Source of the DNA: Sulfurimonas sp. HSL3-7
Lineage (GTDB): Bacteria > Campylobacterota > Campylobacteria > Campylobacterales > Sulfurimonadaceae
DNA: 64,000 bases
Assembly (NCBI RefSeq): GCF_039645985.1
Contig: NZ_CP147919.1
Span: forward strand, 1,984,001 to 2,048,000
Direction of reading: 5' to 3'
Part shown: in pieces, positions 28,011 through 39,656 of the stretch
How the letters are laid out: each line of letters opens with the position of its first letter
Numbering within the stretch: the stretch's first letter is position 1
The notes under the pieces: model-generated
Told to the model about the DNA's origin: nothing
The model's database searches: none
The model's input: the letters and a program-made list of their open reading frames with translations, nothing else
Position numbers and translations under genes: made by a program

Positions 28011-28817
28011 CTACTTTTGGATATCCTTACTGCTATTGAGGTTTTGAAGGTAGTTGGCGATGTTCATCAGGGAAAAGGTGACCAGGAAGATCATCAGCCC
28101 CGGAAAGAAACTGACCCACCAGGCGATATCGAGCACCTCTTTGCCGTTGCTGAGGATGGTCCCCCAGCTCATTTGCGGTGCGACGATCCCCAGGCCGAGA
28201 TAGCTCAGCCCCGATTCCGACAGGATCGCACCCCCTACCCCAAAGGTAAAACTGACAAAAAAAATAGGGGTCAGAAGCGGGGCGTAGTATTTCAAAAGGA
28301 TCTTGGCTCTGCTGACCTTTGCTATGTTCAGAATCTTGATAAAGGGCTGTGAAGTGATGGCAAAACTCTCCGAACGTATCAGCCTGGCCGTTGTCATCCA
28401 CCCGGTGACGGAGATAATCAATATCAGCACCCAGACAGAGGCGTTGATGTAGCTCACCAGTGCCAACAGCAAAAAGAAGGTCGGAAAGGTCAAGAAAAGA
28501 TCGACCGTAACGACAAAGGCTTTGTCGACTTTGCCGCGAAAATAGCCCGCCGTCGCCCCCAGCATCAGACCGACGAACGAGGCGATAAAAGCGCTCCCTA
28601 TTCCGATGAGAAGCGAGACTTTACCCCCTTCGATCAAACGTGCCAACAGATCGCGCCCAAGCCTGTCCGTCCCAAGGGGAAAGAGTGAAGACGGGGCAAC
28701 AAGGATGGCCTCTTTGTGCAGTTCATAGGGGCTCTGTAGATAGACAAACTCTCCCACAAATACAAAAATGAAAACAGAGATAAGTGCTATAAAACTCAAG
28801 TAGGGCAAACGTAGCAA
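28011..28817 (-). CDS. Orphan DppC/OppC-type ABC transporter permease
   Basis: 268 residues, about six helices, with an inner-membrane BPD-permease signature (LGTDRLGRDLLARLIEGGKVSL; the EAA-like loop near ARLIRSESFAITSQPFIKI; LLTPIFFVSFTFGVGGAILSESGLSYLG). TTG start at 28817 with AAGG upstream and an in-frame TAG four codons before it, so the N-terminus is short but complete. No DppB, ATPase or binding protein lies beside it, so its partners, if any, are elsewhere. Confidence 0.85.
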   Translation of the reverse strand: MLRLPYLSFIALISVFIFVFVGEFVYLQSPYELHKEAILVAPSSLFPLGTDRLGRDLLARLIEGGKVSLLIGIGSAFIASFVGLMLGATAGYFRGKVDKAFVVTVDLFLTFPTFFLLLALVSYINASVWVLILIISVTGWMTTARLIRSESFAITSQPFIKILNIAKVSRAKILLKYYAPLLTPIFFVSFTFGVGGAILSESGLSYLGLGIVAPQMSWGTILSNGKEVLDIAWWVSFFPGLMIFLVTFSLMNIANYLQNLNSSKDIQK

Positions 28818-28996: not shown

Positions 28997-31900
28997 CTAA
29001 TTAAGTATCGTCACATAAAGTACCTCTTGCACTGTTGTCCCATTGTCTTTGTGTGCCCCGACAACAATGACATATCGCTTATCACTACTGACTGGCGGGG
29101 CATCAACACGCAGAACCCCGCTGGAAGGCATACTGAAAATACGACTATCCGGATTACTTACAATCGTGTAATCCAATACACCATTACCCGGCGTCGGACT
29201 GAGTTCAAGGTCAGTCACTGTATTATTAGCCCAAAACAAGGTATATTCTCCGTCATCTACAGAAACATTGACCGTCGTTGTCGAAGAAAATGCAATATCG
29301 ACATCAAGCACACTGACCGTAAAGCGCCGCACCGTCGTGTTGACAGGGTGCAGTGTATCGGTGACACGGATTTCCACTTCGTAGACATTGTCCAGATCGG
29401 CATCTTCCGGATCTTCGTAATCTTTTGCAATATTGAATGTTAGGACCCCGTCACTCGTGACGTTGAAGTAGTAACTGTCAAGCCCCGATACTTTTTCATA
29501 CGTCAGCGGTGAACCGATCGGCGACGTGGCCTCAAGCTGGGCGATTGCTTTCTCATTTTCATTCACATCCTGAGCCGCAGGTGTCACAAAGACCGGCAGA
29601 CCGTCCACCGGTTCAATATGCAATTCACCCTGCTGGGTCGCACTGTGGCCCATATCATCACTTGCGACCACTGCACCGCGATAGATATTGGCTTCGGGGT
29701 CGTTACTGAAGGTATAGGCCGGTACATGAACGGTCATCACACCTGTCGAGGCATCGATCGCGAAGATAGACGCATCCGTTCCCTCTGCCATCGCATAGGA
29801 GATCGGTCTTCCGGCTGCCGAAGCTGCCTCGATCGGTACCTCGACCACACTGTTTTGCGGCAAGGTCGCGACATCCTGCGACGTAAAGGTAATGGCGTAG
29901 CTGAGTGCCGCAACATCAACACTGATTGTCGGTGCATAGGTTAACGAGCCGTTAAACTGGCTCTGTGCCGATATGGTCAGGTCATAATGCTCACCCGCAA
30001 CGGCTGGCGATCTCAAGTTCAATGCGCCGCTGACGGCATCAAGGATGAATACATCCGTATGATTGTGCAGTGTGTAACTGAGCGTGACCGGCGTCGAATC
30101 TTTACCGTTAGCCTTGATCGTACCGACAGCAGTCGTCCCTTCTGTCGGGGTAAAACTGTTCAATGAGGTGAACTGCAGCGTCTCGTCGACATCCGTCACA
30201 TTCACGACTATGGCTTTTTCATCCGAATAGTTGCCCAGATTGTCTTTGACCTGCAGCAGGAGATGGTAGCTGGTCGTACCGGCGGCCGAACGCATCGACT
30301 CAAAATCCGCACCGCTCTTGAAGCGCAATCCGTTCGAATCAAAGGCAAAGAGTGCACCGTCATCGCCAGCGGTGAGATAGGTATCGACAACACCGTTACC
30401 CTCGCTGCTGATCAGAATGTTCATATTTCCGGTACTGTTCTCGGCAATATTAAACGTCGTCGAGACAATGACAGGCCTGATCTTATCCGGGTCCTGAAGC
30501 AGTGTAACGGTAATGGTGTCTGTCGTAACGACATTGCCGTTGTTGTCCGTGATCACAACAGCAAACGTATAGACATTTGTTCCCGCTTCATCAAATGCCA
30601 CATGCGGTGAGACATTACCGTTGCCGTCAATAGCGAACAGATTGGCATCGGCACCGGTAAGTGCATAGGCAAGACTTTCAGCATTACCGTTGACCGTAGC
30701 CTGTATCGTCATCAATACCGCTTGTGTCTCTACAACCGATATCTCTCGGGGATAGTTGTTGTCTATTGTCGGCGCTATCTTGGCCGGATCATCAACGACG
30801 ACGATGCTGAAAGGTGCACTCAGGGTCCTTGAACCGTTAAGCTGGCTCTCAACAGCGACCTGAACCGTGATCTTGGCATCTTTTTGTGCCGTTGCTTTCC
30901 ACTGAATGACACCCGCATCATTAATAGTAAAATAGTCGCTGCCCTGGACTAGGGAAAAGTGCTTCTCTAGGTCTTCGGGCAGCGTTTTTGCGGTCGCTTC
31001 TACTGTTGTCACCACACCGCTGCTGCCTTCCTGGACAGTAAAGTCACGAATACCGGAAAAGAGAAAAGTCTCGTCAATATCGACAATCGTCACCTCGATC
31101 GGCTGCACAACACTTTTTTGACCATTGGCATCTTCGACCTGAAGCGTTATTTCAAAAGGTGCCGTGACGCTCTCATGATCCTGAGGCTCGATCAACGACA
31201 GCACCCCGTCGCTGTTGATTGCGAACATCGCGGCATCTTGGCCGCCGAGTGTATAATGGGTGATTTTCACCCCTTCTGCCGTAAATACCTCTACCGCGAT
31301 ATTGCCTTTGGAGTTTTCGACGATCTTGAAGCTTTCGGAAAGGATCACAGGCTGGATTTCGCTTAACGAATCGACCTTGGTAATGACAACATCGTTAATC
31401 CTGCTAATATTTCCGTAGCCGTCTTGGACAATGACATCGATCGTGAAGCTGCTCTTGCCAGACGTTTCTGCAGTACTTGTAAAACGCACCTCGCCTTTTT
31501 CATTGATGCTGAAAAATGCCTTATCCGTCCCCTCCAGTGTGTAAATCAGTTGACTTTGGCTGTCTGCCGCCTGGGCGAAGAGATTAAATACGACCCCCTC
31601 AAAACTGAGTACAGCATACTCTTTGAACATCATATCAATGACGGGAGGAAGTTTTGTGATGTCCGCAACGACTTCAACCTCTATGATCTGAACAGCACGA
31701 TTGGCCTCACTGTCTTCTGCCGAAACGATCACCTCATAGAGGTTTCCACTGTCCGGATCATAGGAAGGCTTTGCGATGAATGAAAGTTTGCCTGTCGTCG
31801 CATCAATGCTGAAAAGTGTACCGTTTTCGCCTCCGATTACGCTGTATCTGACATTGCTCGTGGTATCGGTCGTCACATCAGTGACATAACGCTCCTCACT

Positions 31901-32062
31901 GTTGACAATGACATAATCGCTGCTTGTAAATCCGAAACTCCCATTGATAAGGTCCAGACCGCTTAGTCTCTTAACCGTTTCAAACGAGTAGTCTGCTTCC
32001 CCGCATCCGGAAAAGATCAATCCGGTAATAAAAAGTGATGCCATTAATGCTTTTCTTATCAT
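28997..32062 (-). CDS. Cadherin-repeat surface lipoprotein
   Basis: 1021 residues from the ATG at 32062, chosen because AGGAG lies upstream and a lipoprotein signal (MIRKALMASLFITGLIFSGC) starts there. The rest is a chain of about nine cadherin-like repeats of ~100 residues, with recurring VxxxDxxGN turns and FxIdxxxG segments (for example VIVQDGYGNIS, LQVEDANGQKS, LQVKDNLGNYS). It is probably calcium-binding and surface-exposed or periplasmic, mediating adhesion or matrix contact. It is the third gene of the caspase-fold/OMP/cadherin operon, 8 nt after the barrel gene. Confidence 0.88.
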   Translation of the reverse strand: MIRKALMASLFITGLIFSGCGEADYSFETVKRLSGLDLINGSFGFTSSDYVIVNSEERYVTDVTTDTTSNVRYSVIGGENGTLFSIDATTGKLSFIAKPSYDPDSGNLYEVIVSAEDSEANRAVQIIEVEVVADITKLPPVIDMMFKEYAVLSFEGVVFNLFAQAADSQSQLIYTLEGTDKAFFSINEKGEVRFTSTAETSGKSSFTIDVIVQDGYGNISRINDVVITKVDSLSEIQPVILSESFKIVENSKGNIAVEVFTAEGVKITHYTLGGQDAAMFAINSDGVLSLIEPQDHESVTAPFEITLQVEDANGQKSVVQPIEVTIVDIDETFLFSGIRDFTVQEGSSGVVTTVEATAKTLPEDLEKHFSLVQGSDYFTINDAGVIQWKATAQKDAKITVQVAVESQLNGSRTLSAPFSIVVVDDPAKIAPTIDNNYPREISVVETQAVLMTIQATVNGNAESLAYALTGADANLFAIDGNGNVSPHVAFDEAGTNVYTFAVVITDNNGNVVTTDTITVTLLQDPDKIRPVIVSTTFNIAENSTGNMNILISSEGNGVVDTYLTAGDDGALFAFDSNGLRFKSGADFESMRSAAGTTSYHLLLQVKDNLGNYSDEKAIVVNVTDVDETLQFTSLNSFTPTEGTTAVGTIKANGKDSTPVTLSYTLHNHTDVFILDAVSGALNLRSPAVAGEHYDLTISAQSQFNGSLTYAPTISVDVAALSYAITFTSQDVATLPQNSVVEVPIEAASAAGRPISYAMAEGTDASIFAIDASTGVMTVHVPAYTFSNDPEANIYRGAVVASDDMGHSATQQGELHIEPVDGLPVFVTPAAQDVNENEKAIAQLEATSPIGSPLTYEKVSGLDSYYFNVTSDGVLTFNIAKDYEDPEDADLDNVYEVEIRVTDTLHPVNTTVRRFTVSVLDVDIAFSSTTTVNVSVDDGEYTLFWANNTVTDLELSPTPGNGVLDYTIVSNPDSRIFSMPSSGVLRVDAPPVSSDKRYVIVVGAHKDNGTTVQEVLYVTILN

Positions 32063-32070
32063 CTCTTCTC

Positions 32071-33063
32071 CTAATCCCAAAATTCGTAACTCAGCCCGAC
32101 CGTACCGATCGCACTCGATGTATTATGTTGGACTTTGACCCAGACGGCGAAATTCTCATGAAAATGGTACGCACCCCGAAGACCGGCGATCAGGTTGTTC
32201 TCATACCCCTGAAACGTCTCGCCCGAACTAACCGTACGATACAGGTACTGAAACTGGTAGCCGACCTGCAGCTGCAGATCATAGCGCATATGGTAGCGGT
32301 ACCCCAACCCGGTGTTGATACCCACACGGAAGATATAGGGACTGCCGCCGTCATAGATAACTTTTTCCGTCGGGTCAGGGTCCTTCGTGTTTTTCTGCTG
32401 CATGACCCAGCCCAGTTCCGCACCGCCCATGAGATAGAAATTGGCCGTCGGAAGTTTGTAGAGATAGGCAGCATCCAGCGTCATGGTCGGTGCGGACACA
32501 TATCTGTACTCAGCGCTTTTTTTGCCGGTCGCGCTCTCTACCAGATCGCCCTCGAAGGTGCCGGTACCGCCGCCGGAGTAACCCACACCGAAACCGAACT
32601 GTACCGCCTGCCACAGGCCGTCATCGAGCATCAACGACGCACCGTAGCCTTCGTACTCTTCTTTACAGACCGCGTCGATCTCTTTCATCTCTTCGGGCGG
32701 CAGCGTTGAAAGCGTATAGACCGCTTCGAGCGAACAGGTGTCGTTTCTGATCTTGCGGCTTGTCACCCTGACATTCTTGATCTCGACAGGATGGGCCAGG
32801 CGGATATCGATGTTGTGTGTTTCACAGAGATCAGCTTCGGCCATTGCATCTTCGGCCATCTGCTCTTTGGCATCCTCTTCGCAATCTGTCAGTTCAGAGT
32901 AATCTTCCAGTGCCGCTTCAAGAGAGAATTCCGCATCGGCGCTCAATGCATACGATTGCGTAACATCATACGAACGTGCGTCTGCACTCCGATTATCTGG
33001 CCATTCCGTCTCAGCGCCGGCAAAAAGTGAAAGGGAGATCATAAGTGCTGCATATCGTTTCAT
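32071..33063 (-). CDS. Outer-membrane beta-barrel protein of the caspase/cadherin operon
   Basis: 330 residues. The signal peptide MKRYAALMISLSLFAGA is followed by an acidic, Cys-containing N-terminal part (~20-115), then an eight- to ten-strand barrel-like region ending in an aromatic (SYEFWD). DGLWQAVQFGFGVGYSGGGTGTFEGD and LGWVMQQ are typical barrel strands. It lies 12 nt after the caspase-fold gene and 8 nt before the cadherin gene. It is unlike a named family I can place, and could anchor or export the lipoprotein. Confidence 0.75.
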   Translation of the reverse strand: MKRYAALMISLSLFAGAETEWPDNRSADARSYDVTQSYALSADAEFSLEAALEDYSELTDCEEDAKEQMAEDAMAEADLCETHNIDIRLAHPVEIKNVRVTSRKIRNDTCSLEAVYTLSTLPPEEMKEIDAVCKEEYEGYGASLMLDDGLWQAVQFGFGVGYSGGGTGTFEGDLVESATGKKSAEYRYVSAPTMTLDAAYLYKLPTANFYLMGGAELGWVMQQKNTKDPDPTEKVIYDGGSPYIFRVGINTGLGYRYHMRYDLQLQVGYQFQYLYRTVSSGETFQGYENNLIAGLRGAYHFHENFAVWVKVQHNTSSAIGTVGLSYEFWD

Positions 33064-33075
33064 CGTCTCTGCCTC

Positions 33076-34386
33076 CTACTTCTGCATCGCTAAATTGCGG
33101 TAACCGAAAAACTCGGGTTCCTGCGTGAACTCCGGACCGTAGGTTGTTGAGACCTGGAGCATCTTTAACTGCAGGTCATCAAACATCTCCCCGGCATCCT
33201 GCTCTTTTTCAGAGAGCGCCCCTTTGATCAGAAAGTAACTGAAGAGCCGGTACCCTTTTTCAAAGTAGCCATTCGCGGTCTGGTCACGGTTTGCCGCGTT
33301 GATGATGTTGAGGCGCTTATGATACTTTGTCTTTTTGACAGGGCCGCTCAGACGCTCCCCTTTCTTAAGCGGTATACCGTCACTCACCCCCATAAAACTC
33401 GCATCAATAAAAGCAAACGTCCGTTCTGCCCGACAACGCTGGAATGCGTTATAGATGCGTTCCATCCCCACAAGCCCATCATCGTCCAACATATCCACCG
33501 AACCGTCATAAGCAAGCAAAAAGTTTTTACCGGAAGGGCCCGACATGGCATGCCCCACAAAATAAAAGTAGACGGTATCTTCCTGCTGAATACGGTTTAT
33601 CATCTTTTCAAGCGCCGCCAGGATGTTTGCCGCTGTCGCCTTTTCATTCTCTACCACAATGGTATGACGCAAAGGCACGCCCATCTTTTTCTGAAAAGTG
33701 CTCACCACCGCTTTGGCCGTTCGGGAAGCGAACAGTACGCTATCTGCGTTGGCATAGTTCTCTATTGAGACAACAAAAAGCCAGGATTTGTAGTCTGGAT
33801 AGCTCTTTTTAGTGCGCTTGATCAGTCTAGCCAGTTCGTCATCTTTTGCATTATACGTTTTGTCAGAGTAGCTCGTTAAAAGAGGCAGGAAGGGGTCATT
33901 CAGGTTCGGATTTTGCAGTGTTGTATCAAATACTGTGCTGACATCTATAAGTTGGGGGTACTCTTGAGAGACACTTGCAGCGCCGTGTACTTTTGCATCA
34001 TAATCGAGGAAAGTACGGAGTTTCTGAAGTTTTTGATTGTGTTTTCTGACCTGTCTTTCAAATTCTTCTTTTGAACTGTTTGCGCTATTGTTGCGCTGGA
34101 GCACCTCGTCACGGTAACTCTTTTGAATGTCAAACGTTGCCTGTTGGCGTTTTTGTGTTGCGTTGCGAACACGTTTTAAAAACGCCGCCTCACTCTCGCC
34201 ACTCTTTTTCTGAAACGCCTTCAGAGAAGACAATTCGGGAACAGCAATCTTTTCTGTACTGGCAAAAGCATCCATTGATCCAAGATGGACAGCCGAAATA
34301 TCGAGTGGGACATAGTTCTGTATGAGATTTTCTTCTGCCAAAAGTGACACCCAGCTTATGGCTAACAGTACTAAAAGTTTCTGCAT
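33076..34386 (-). CDS. Exported caspase-fold (peptidase C14-like) protein with Ser at the Cys position
   Basis: 436 residues. The signal peptide is MQKLLVLLAISWVSLLA; a charged, partly coiled-coil region spans ~50-120; the caspase-like domain spans ~195-400. The His box VYFYFVGHAMSG has H279. The box that normally reads D-x-C-x-S/G is FAFIDASFMG, with S330 (codon AGT) at the position usually held by the catalytic Cys. SWLFVVSIENYANADSV is the family's strand 1. It could be a pseudo-enzyme or a Ser variant. It heads an operon with a barrel protein and a cadherin-type lipoprotein; a decayed relative lies directly upstream. Confidence 0.85.
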   Translation of the reverse strand: MQKLLVLLAISWVSLLAEENLIQNYVPLDISAVHLGSMDAFASTEKIAVPELSSLKAFQKKSGESEAAFLKRVRNATQKRQQATFDIQKSYRDEVLQRNNSANSSKEEFERQVRKHNQKLQKLRTFLDYDAKVHGAASVSQEYPQLIDVSTVFDTTLQNPNLNDPFLPLLTSYSDKTYNAKDDELARLIKRTKKSYPDYKSWLFVVSIENYANADSVLFASRTAKAVVSTFQKKMGVPLRHTIVVENEKATAANILAALEKMINRIQQEDTVYFYFVGHAMSGPSGKNFLLAYDGSVDMLDDDGLVGMERIYNAFQRCRAERTFAFIDASFMGVSDGIPLKKGERLSGPVKKTKYHKRLNIINAANRDQTANGYFEKGYRLFSYFLIKGALSEKEQDAGEMFDDLQLKMLQVSTTYGPEFTQEPEFFGYRNLAMQK

Positions 34387-34639
34387 TACGATCCTGTTGA
34401 TATCAATAAAATATCATTTATAAGAAATTTTTATTTTCTATTATGACTTTATCTTATATAAAATTATTTCAATCCATTCTACACAAAAACTGTATAAAAA
34501 CAAACATAAATGAGCTTGGATCGTGAAGTATATGCAAGGCCTATTTTATGTATAAAACACTCTTATTGGCATAGCTTCTACGGTGGAGGTTTGGAAAGGA
34601 GGTCAATGCTCGTAATGAATAGATTGTGAAAGTCTAAGT
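34387..34639. other. AT-rich intergenic region upstream of the caspase-fold operon
   Basis: About 250 bases, clearly more AT-rich than the flanking genes, presumably holding the operon promoter. No complete gene was found; the next ~190 bases are the pseudogene remnant. Confidence 0.5.
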
Positions 34640-34825
34640 TTGAAATTGCAAGTTCTCTGTAACCGAAAATTCCGGTTCCTGCAGATCGTCCCGGCCATAT
34701 TTTAACGATTCGTTTCGTATCAAAATACGAACAGTTCCCCTGTATTTTGGGATTTGGAAAGTGCCTCTTTGACCAAAAAACAACTGAAAGCCGATACGCT
34801 TTACTCAAGTAGACATTGGTACTGG
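34640..34825 (-). pseudogene. Frameshifted remnant of a second caspase-fold gene (C-terminal part)
   Basis: On the minus strand, stretches match the C-terminus of the intact gene in order, in shifting frames: NVYLSKAYRL (intact ANGYFEKGYRL), LVKEALSK (intact LIKGALSEK), LQEPEF (intact TQEPEF), IFGYRELA (intact FFGYRNLA). The base-level match is also colinear, with a modest deletion between the two blocks. Upstream parts of the gene are gone. It is a decayed copy from a tandem duplication or an older system. Confidence 0.8.
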
Positions 34826-34904
34826 CGTACACCTAATGAGCTGTTGGGAATGTTCAAATGAAAATAATTTTATTCAACCACATTCTCATTATACTCTTTA
34901 GGAT

Positions 34905-38753: not shown

Positions 38754-39656
38754 TTATACCGTTTTAGGTAGTTTCTCTTTCATCATAGCGACAAGGGATT
38801 CATCCAGGGTGTCAACATTCGGAAGGACGATATTTGCTTTAAGATAAAGATCACCTTTTTGATTTGTCTTGCGGTTAACCGCCCCCATCTCTTTGACGCG
38901 AAAACGCTGCCCGTTCTTCGTGTTTTGAGGCACTTTGAGCGTGATCTCTTTCTCTAAAGTATTGATCATGATCTTATCGCCAAAAAGTGCTGCAGAGAGA
39001 GGGAGATCAAAACTTTTGACCAAATTGTCGCCGTCACGTTCATACTCCGGGTTTTGTGCCACATTGATCTTAAGGTAGAGATCGCCGCTTTGTCCGCCCT
39101 GTTTGTGCCCTTTGCCGCGCACACGCAATTTCTCGCCGTCTTTGATACCGGCCGGGATCTTAATGTCAAAACTCTCACCCTGTACGGTAACACCGTGTTT
39201 TCCGCCCAGTATTGCTACGTTGAAAGGCACCGTAATGGCGCTTTCGATGTCAAGGTTGACCGTCTGACGGCCATGTCCGCCACCGAAACCGCCGAAACCA
39301 CCGCCGCCAAAACCGCCTGCACCGCCAAACCCGGCGCTTCCGCCAAAACCGCCGCCACCACCGAACATCTGACGCAGGATCTCATCAAGATCCACATTGG
39401 CCCCCTGGCCGCGTGCAAAATCATGGAAGTTCTGTCCGCCGAACATCTGGTCGCCGTAGGCATCATACTGCGCTTTTTTATCTTTGTCGCTCAAAACCTC
39501 GTAGGCAGCATTGATCTCTTTAAACTTATCTTCGGCCCCCGGGTCTTTATTGACATCCGGGTGATACTGACGGGCCAACTTACGGTATGCTTTTTTGATC
39601 TCTGCTTCGCTGGCGTTATCACTGACACCTAATGTCTCATACAGACTTTTACTCAT
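38754..39656 (-). CDS. cbpA: DnaJ-family co-chaperone CbpA
   Basis: 300 residues. J-domain 1-70 with the HPD motif ([10 protein letters not shown]), a Gly/Phe-rich linker (~85-135), then two C-terminal substrate-binding subdomains. There is no Cys-rich zinc finger, which separates CbpA from DnaJ. It stimulates DnaK ATPase. First gene of the cbpA-hspR operon; GAGGAA ribosome-binding site. Confidence 0.94.

Follow-up and report, generated by a model that had tools for sequence, protein, structure and literature searches.

Why would a bacterium export a caspase-fold protein and encode it next to an outer-membrane barrel and a very large cadherin-repeat lipoprotein? The question is raised by a three-gene operon of Sulfurimonas sp. 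HSL3-7, studied here in a window of 64,000 nucleotides (the whole stretch of DNA analyzed) from a genome that forms one contig of 2.87 Mb. The genes lie on the minus strand in the order casB (34386–33076), barrel protein (33063–32071) and lipoprotein (32062–28997), separated by 12 and 8 nt, just as the first-pass annotation of the sequence had described them. Its claim that all three products carry export signals holds as well, as read from sequence only: the Sec signals of casB and the barrel protein consist of a hydrophobic N-terminus with an Ala before the presumed cut, and the lipoprotein has the lipobox IFSG-C. The features are as follows.

about 34638–34860, minus strand: frameshifted C-terminal remnant of casA (tblastn E 2e-9 to residues about 293–370 of congener casA)
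33076–34386, minus strand: casB, predicted exported pseudocaspase of 436 aa with a signal peptide, a helical region and a C-terminal caspase fold
33550–33552, minus strand: codon of His279, the caspase catalytic His by alignment, kept in 11/11 proteins
33397–33399, minus strand: codon AGT of Ser330 (motif FIDASF), which aligns with the caspase nucleophile Cys
32071–33063, minus strand: outer-membrane barrel protein of 330 aa with a signal peptide, an N-terminal Cys-containing domain and a C-terminal barrel
32614–32973, minus strand: N-terminal domain of the barrel protein, about 120 residues
32077–32610, minus strand: 8-stranded beta-barrel, OmpX/Ail/OmpA-like (AF2, Foldseek)
28997–32062, minus strand: cadherin-repeat lipoprotein of 1021 aa, likely start ATG at 32062
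31976–32002, minus strand: GEADYSFET tag that immediately follows the acylated Cys

The named relatives of the window genome are MAGs labelled Helicobacteraceae or Campylobacterales. The locus was detected in five of the seven congeners, downstream of rsmD in all five; contigs of the remaining two, G002 and G006, stop at rsmD, and the locus count there carries no information. An oppC-like permease flanks the other side of the locus in G003, G004 and G001, where the contig reaches far enough. The window likewise has an oppC/dppC-like permease gene adjoining the operon (28011–28817), and the space between operon and permease in G003 holds a probable lipoprotein of 774 aa and an opposite-strand ORF of 176 aa (L032:11618–13942). 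The first-pass annotation had supposed that these genes belong together, and they do recur together elsewhere: besides the five congeners with the module, one genome of another genus, G023, has a caspase–barrel pair, and another, G019, an analogous run of genes.

In all five congeners with the locus, the operon begins with an extra gene, casA, located 129–202 nt upstream of casB. This order and the casA remnant in the window point to an ancestral arrangement casA–casB–barrel–lipoprotein(s), from which casA was lost in the window genome. The reduction of casA to a remnant would also fit an operon that is being lost in the window species as a whole, a reading that we consider very improbable, as the other three genes are intact and show low dN with high or saturated dS against relatives. 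For pairs with unsaturated dS, dN/dS was about 0.03–0.17 for casA, casB and the barrel gene, which indicates that these are maintained genes under purifying selection.

To judge from profile and structure comparisons, the caspase fold assigned to casB in the first-pass annotation is sound. The protein matches the NCBIfam caspase domain at E 7e-10, under the model's curated cut-off, and the PADLOC caspase at E 6e-9, and its predicted structure resembles metacaspases (Foldseek E 1e-4), the AF2 model being of low confidence. Window casB has no match to Pfam C14; for a close sister protein, the match to Pfam Peptidase_C14 has E 1e-17. A defence system was considered and rejected, PADLOC giving a generic caspase model only, with no partner. 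The first-pass annotation had overlooked the lack of the nucleophile Cys, as well as the decayed casA upstream: in all 11 operon caspase-fold proteins (6 casB and 5 casA) the aligned nucleophile motif DxC reads D[ATS]S. The catalytic His (GHG/GHA) is kept in each of them. Five of the six casB proteins are cysteine-free, and that of the window has a single Cys, at a non-conserved place. Elsewhere in the order, the caspase-fold proteins that were inspected, in sets of 15, 12 and 5, keep the Cys (DSC or DAC) without exception (32/32). By their sequences, casA and casB are thus predicted pseudo-proteases.

A hydrolase with Ser in place of Cys would offer another use for these proteins, which could then still cut envelope or foreign proteins. 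His279 and Ser330 are indeed invariant (11/11), but about a quarter of the columns of the casA/casB alignment are invariant, so that two such residues are not telling; moreover, GHG has become GHA in four of the six casB proteins, and a Cys-to-Ser change normally kills caspases. We regard residual Ser-based catalysis as improbable. An exported caspase-fold protein encoded outside the operon (L001:871–2064, G000:C1 about 1001100–1002300) is its genome's only Pfam caspase match; judged by eye, it has no Cys at the nucleophile place either (VLDGAKEAP).

In a maximum-likelihood tree of 35 domains, the 11 Cys-less proteins form a single long-branched clade (100/100), within which casA and casB, paralogs of about 42% identity, form sister clades (99/97 and 98/97). 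The simplest history is therefore one loss of the Cys followed by tandem duplication. The G023 caspase, with His and Cys intact, was placed beside the dead clade with modest support (87/88).

Caspase homologs with a broken His-Cys dyad are not new. The 2019 survey of orthocaspases counted 858 pseudo-orthocaspases among 9,994 sequences, 90% of them from Alphaproteobacteria and Cyanobacteria (Klemencic et al. 2019, PMC6426788), and the dyads common in Rhizobiales (YS, YA, FS, QC and HA) include Ser, a known replacement of Cys (PMC6426788). Pseudo-orthocaspases are defined by a caspase p20-like domain with a substituted dyad, no p10 and no proteolytic activity; casA and casB resemble them in the caspase-type fold and the broken dyad. 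Points of difference are that casA and casB have a His-Ser dyad, a pair missing from the common Rhizobiales dyads of that survey, come from Campylobacterota, are predicted to be exported, occur as a tandem duplicate and are tied to a barrel and lipoproteins. Nor is export of a caspase homolog as such the oddity that the first-pass annotation saw in it: an N-terminal helix, a possible signal peptide, was reported for 46 of 671 surveyed bacterial homologs (PMC3501461).

The outer-membrane barrel announced by the first-pass annotation was recovered in an AF2 model built from six sequences, which has 8 strands at residues 152–329 with pLDDT mostly >80, and in Foldseek matches to Ail, OmpX, NspA and OmpA (E about 1e-6); a PDB sequence search with the protein found nothing. 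Barrels of the OmpX/Ail/OmpA type have a common 8-stranded fold, to which the window protein adds an N-terminal domain of about 120 residues that contains Cys. This domain, modeled by AF2 with low confidence, has four Cys residues that are invariant in the genus (Cys61, Cys80, Cys110 and Cys133) and matches nothing in Pfam; the protein also gave no match to the OmpA peptidoglycan-binding domain. A search covering 228 genomes at family level and 397 at phylum level recovered the N-terminal domain in its own genus and G023 only, and a full-length barrel profile found no relatives in other genera across 398 order genomes. A match to the domain in G308 (E 0.004) was taken as chance, since neither a caspase nor a barrel was evident in the stretch that was read. 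Eight-stranded OmpX-like barrels have no wide pore, which argues against the protein being a translocator on its own; the model suggests an OmpX-like anchor and makes a role as secretion pore unlikely.

The same point bears on the contact-dependent module that the first-pass annotation had proposed, taken here as a surface system that works through contact or killing. Adhesins often carry cadherin repeats, and all products appear exported; given a dead protease, a barrel too small for a translocator and an operon in which no toxin or immunity gene was recognised, the proposal is hardly credible.

For the lipoprotein gene, the ATG at 32062 is preferred as start over the TTG at 32080 of the mechanical ORF, the ATG product being the lipobox protein MIRKALMASLFITGLIFSGC. 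A match to Pfam Cadherin at E 4.5e-25 and the lipobox confirm that this is a cadherin lipoprotein, as claimed from the first inspection. Further lipoproteins are encoded at the locus in congeners, two each in G001 and G004 and at least one each in G005 and G007. The third lipoproteins (LP3) of G001, G004 and G005 share 40–44% mutual identity and show no similarity to the cadherin lipoproteins outside the tag stretch (best blastp E 0.8). This stretch, G-E-[AT]-[DNS]-Y-[STN]-[LF] after the acylated Cys, was found in all 11 operon lipoproteins, and its variable pair is uniform within each genome: TS in three lipoproteins of G001 (ETSY), AD in three of G004 (EADY) and AN in two of G005 (EANY), with AN also in both lipoproteins of G007, which is closely related to G005. 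When eight tags are dealt at random over three lineages, 2 of 560 arrangements are equally orderly. In G001, two of the genes use AGT for the tag serines and the third uses TCG/TCT, and signal-peptide DNA shows no greater similarity within genomes than between them, which makes recent gene conversion a poor explanation for the matching. With three lineages and a pattern noticed while looking, we treat tag matching as a lead rather than proof. An ETNYSFE form of the tag also occurs outside the operon, at G007:C67:6458, G001:C142:25083 and G005:C265:2077 (L063, L060 and L069).

How firmly the lipoproteins belong to the module depends on spacing. The gap between casB and the barrel gene is 0–12 nt in all six genomes; between barrel and lipoprotein it measures 8 nt in two of them, the window and G003, and 264–298 nt in the other four, where the lipoprotein may accordingly be a separate transcription unit. 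Promoter and terminator scans gave no excess over shuffles. In G023, a 295-aa protein with the barrel N-domain is encoded directly downstream of the sister His-Cys caspase, and there is no lipoprotein. The wide gaps and the G023 pair are what one would expect if casB and the barrel protein formed one pair and the cadherin lipoproteins were mere neighbours with a separate role. On the other hand, each of the six genomes that carry the locus has lipoproteins downstream of the barrel, the operon lipoprotein is the only match to the tag pattern in the window genome, and the gene order in G019 is analogous. A loose cluster of this kind is a serious possibility, though on balance we think it rather unlikely.

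Our preferred, still tentative, reading is a non-catalytic envelope complex in which the pseudocaspases are kept as binding subunits, docked on the barrel and receiving the operon lipoproteins via their tag. It builds on what is directly established, namely gene order, nucleophile loss, purifying selection and the common tag. The starting state would have been an exported caspase that acted together with a small barrel, as still seen in G023. In the ancestor of the genus the nucleophile Cys would have changed to Ser, with later duplication into casA and casB, and the dead caspases would have retained the fold that binds peptides in active relatives. As the barrel with its extra N-domain is the constant neighbour of casB, we infer a complex of the two at the inner face of the outer membrane, with casB most likely periplasmic and docking on the N-terminal Cys-containing domain. 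The complex might read the tag beside the lipid anchor, for docking or sorting, and the lipoproteins would be held or sorted in the outer membrane, their cadherin-type domains possibly surface-exposed and serving as adhesin or matrix. A more specific version, in which the old substrate groove of the dead caspases binds the genome-specific tag and passes or holds lipoproteins at the barrel, is distinctly unlikely. Against the complex counts that shared ancestry accounts in part for a gene order conserved within a single genus (rsmD is next to the locus everywhere), as does the lipoprotein, which lacks tight linkage in four of six genomes and is absent from G023. The surroundings of the G023 pair differ, so that the association of caspase and N-domain is not accounted for by inheritance of the neighbourhood as a whole.

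Exported Cys-bearing caspases of Campylobacterales often adjoin LPP20/DUF4384 proteins, and 11 of 11 partners tested match LPP20 at E <0.01 (loci L038, L041, L042, L044, L046, L047, L050, L051, L072, L075 and L098). These caspases resemble casB in a caspase domain of about 30% identity, export signals and an envelope partner, but keep the catalytic Cys and have LPP20/DUF4384 instead of a barrel. They apparently represent a wider, undescribed pairing from which the dead-caspase operon departs. In G019, three genes with gaps of 15 and 12 nt encode, in this order, a Cys-bearing caspase, a barrel-like protein of 259 aa and a lipoprotein of 1101 aa that has Ig-like and cadherin domains. As a homologous operon this run was rejected and is treated as an analogy, for the 259-aa protein looks barrel-like from its residues alone, and no sequence similarity between it and the window barrel was detected.

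By analogy only, the operon also recalls PorU–PorV of type IX secretion, where an exported caspase-fold protein and an outer-membrane barrel act on surface proteins. PorU is a C25 enzyme with a Cys, PorV a 14-stranded barrel, and type IX cargo is tagged at the C-terminus rather than at a lipoprotein N-terminus. casB has no match to C25 peptidases in Pfam, its nucleophile Cys is absent and its barrel partner has 8 strands, which sets the pair apart from PorU and PorV.

Our literature search found no paper on exported Campylobacterota caspases with a barrel or LPP20, and no earlier description of an exported tandem pair of dead caspases with a barrel and tagged lipoproteins, which is probably a variant of the known pseudo-orthocaspases. 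Bacterial pseudo-caspases are known, their function mostly not; this operon, its pseudocaspase arrangement restricted to one deep-sea genus, offers an example with fixed partners and a nucleophile loss placed on a tree. With the active sister pair of G023 for comparison and the lipoprotein tag as candidate ligand, the role of the dead caspases becomes directly testable. Elsewhere in the window, an 18-nt tandem repeat (39304–39359) lies within an ORF (38754–39656) and resembles the glycine-rich region of DnaJ-type proteins.
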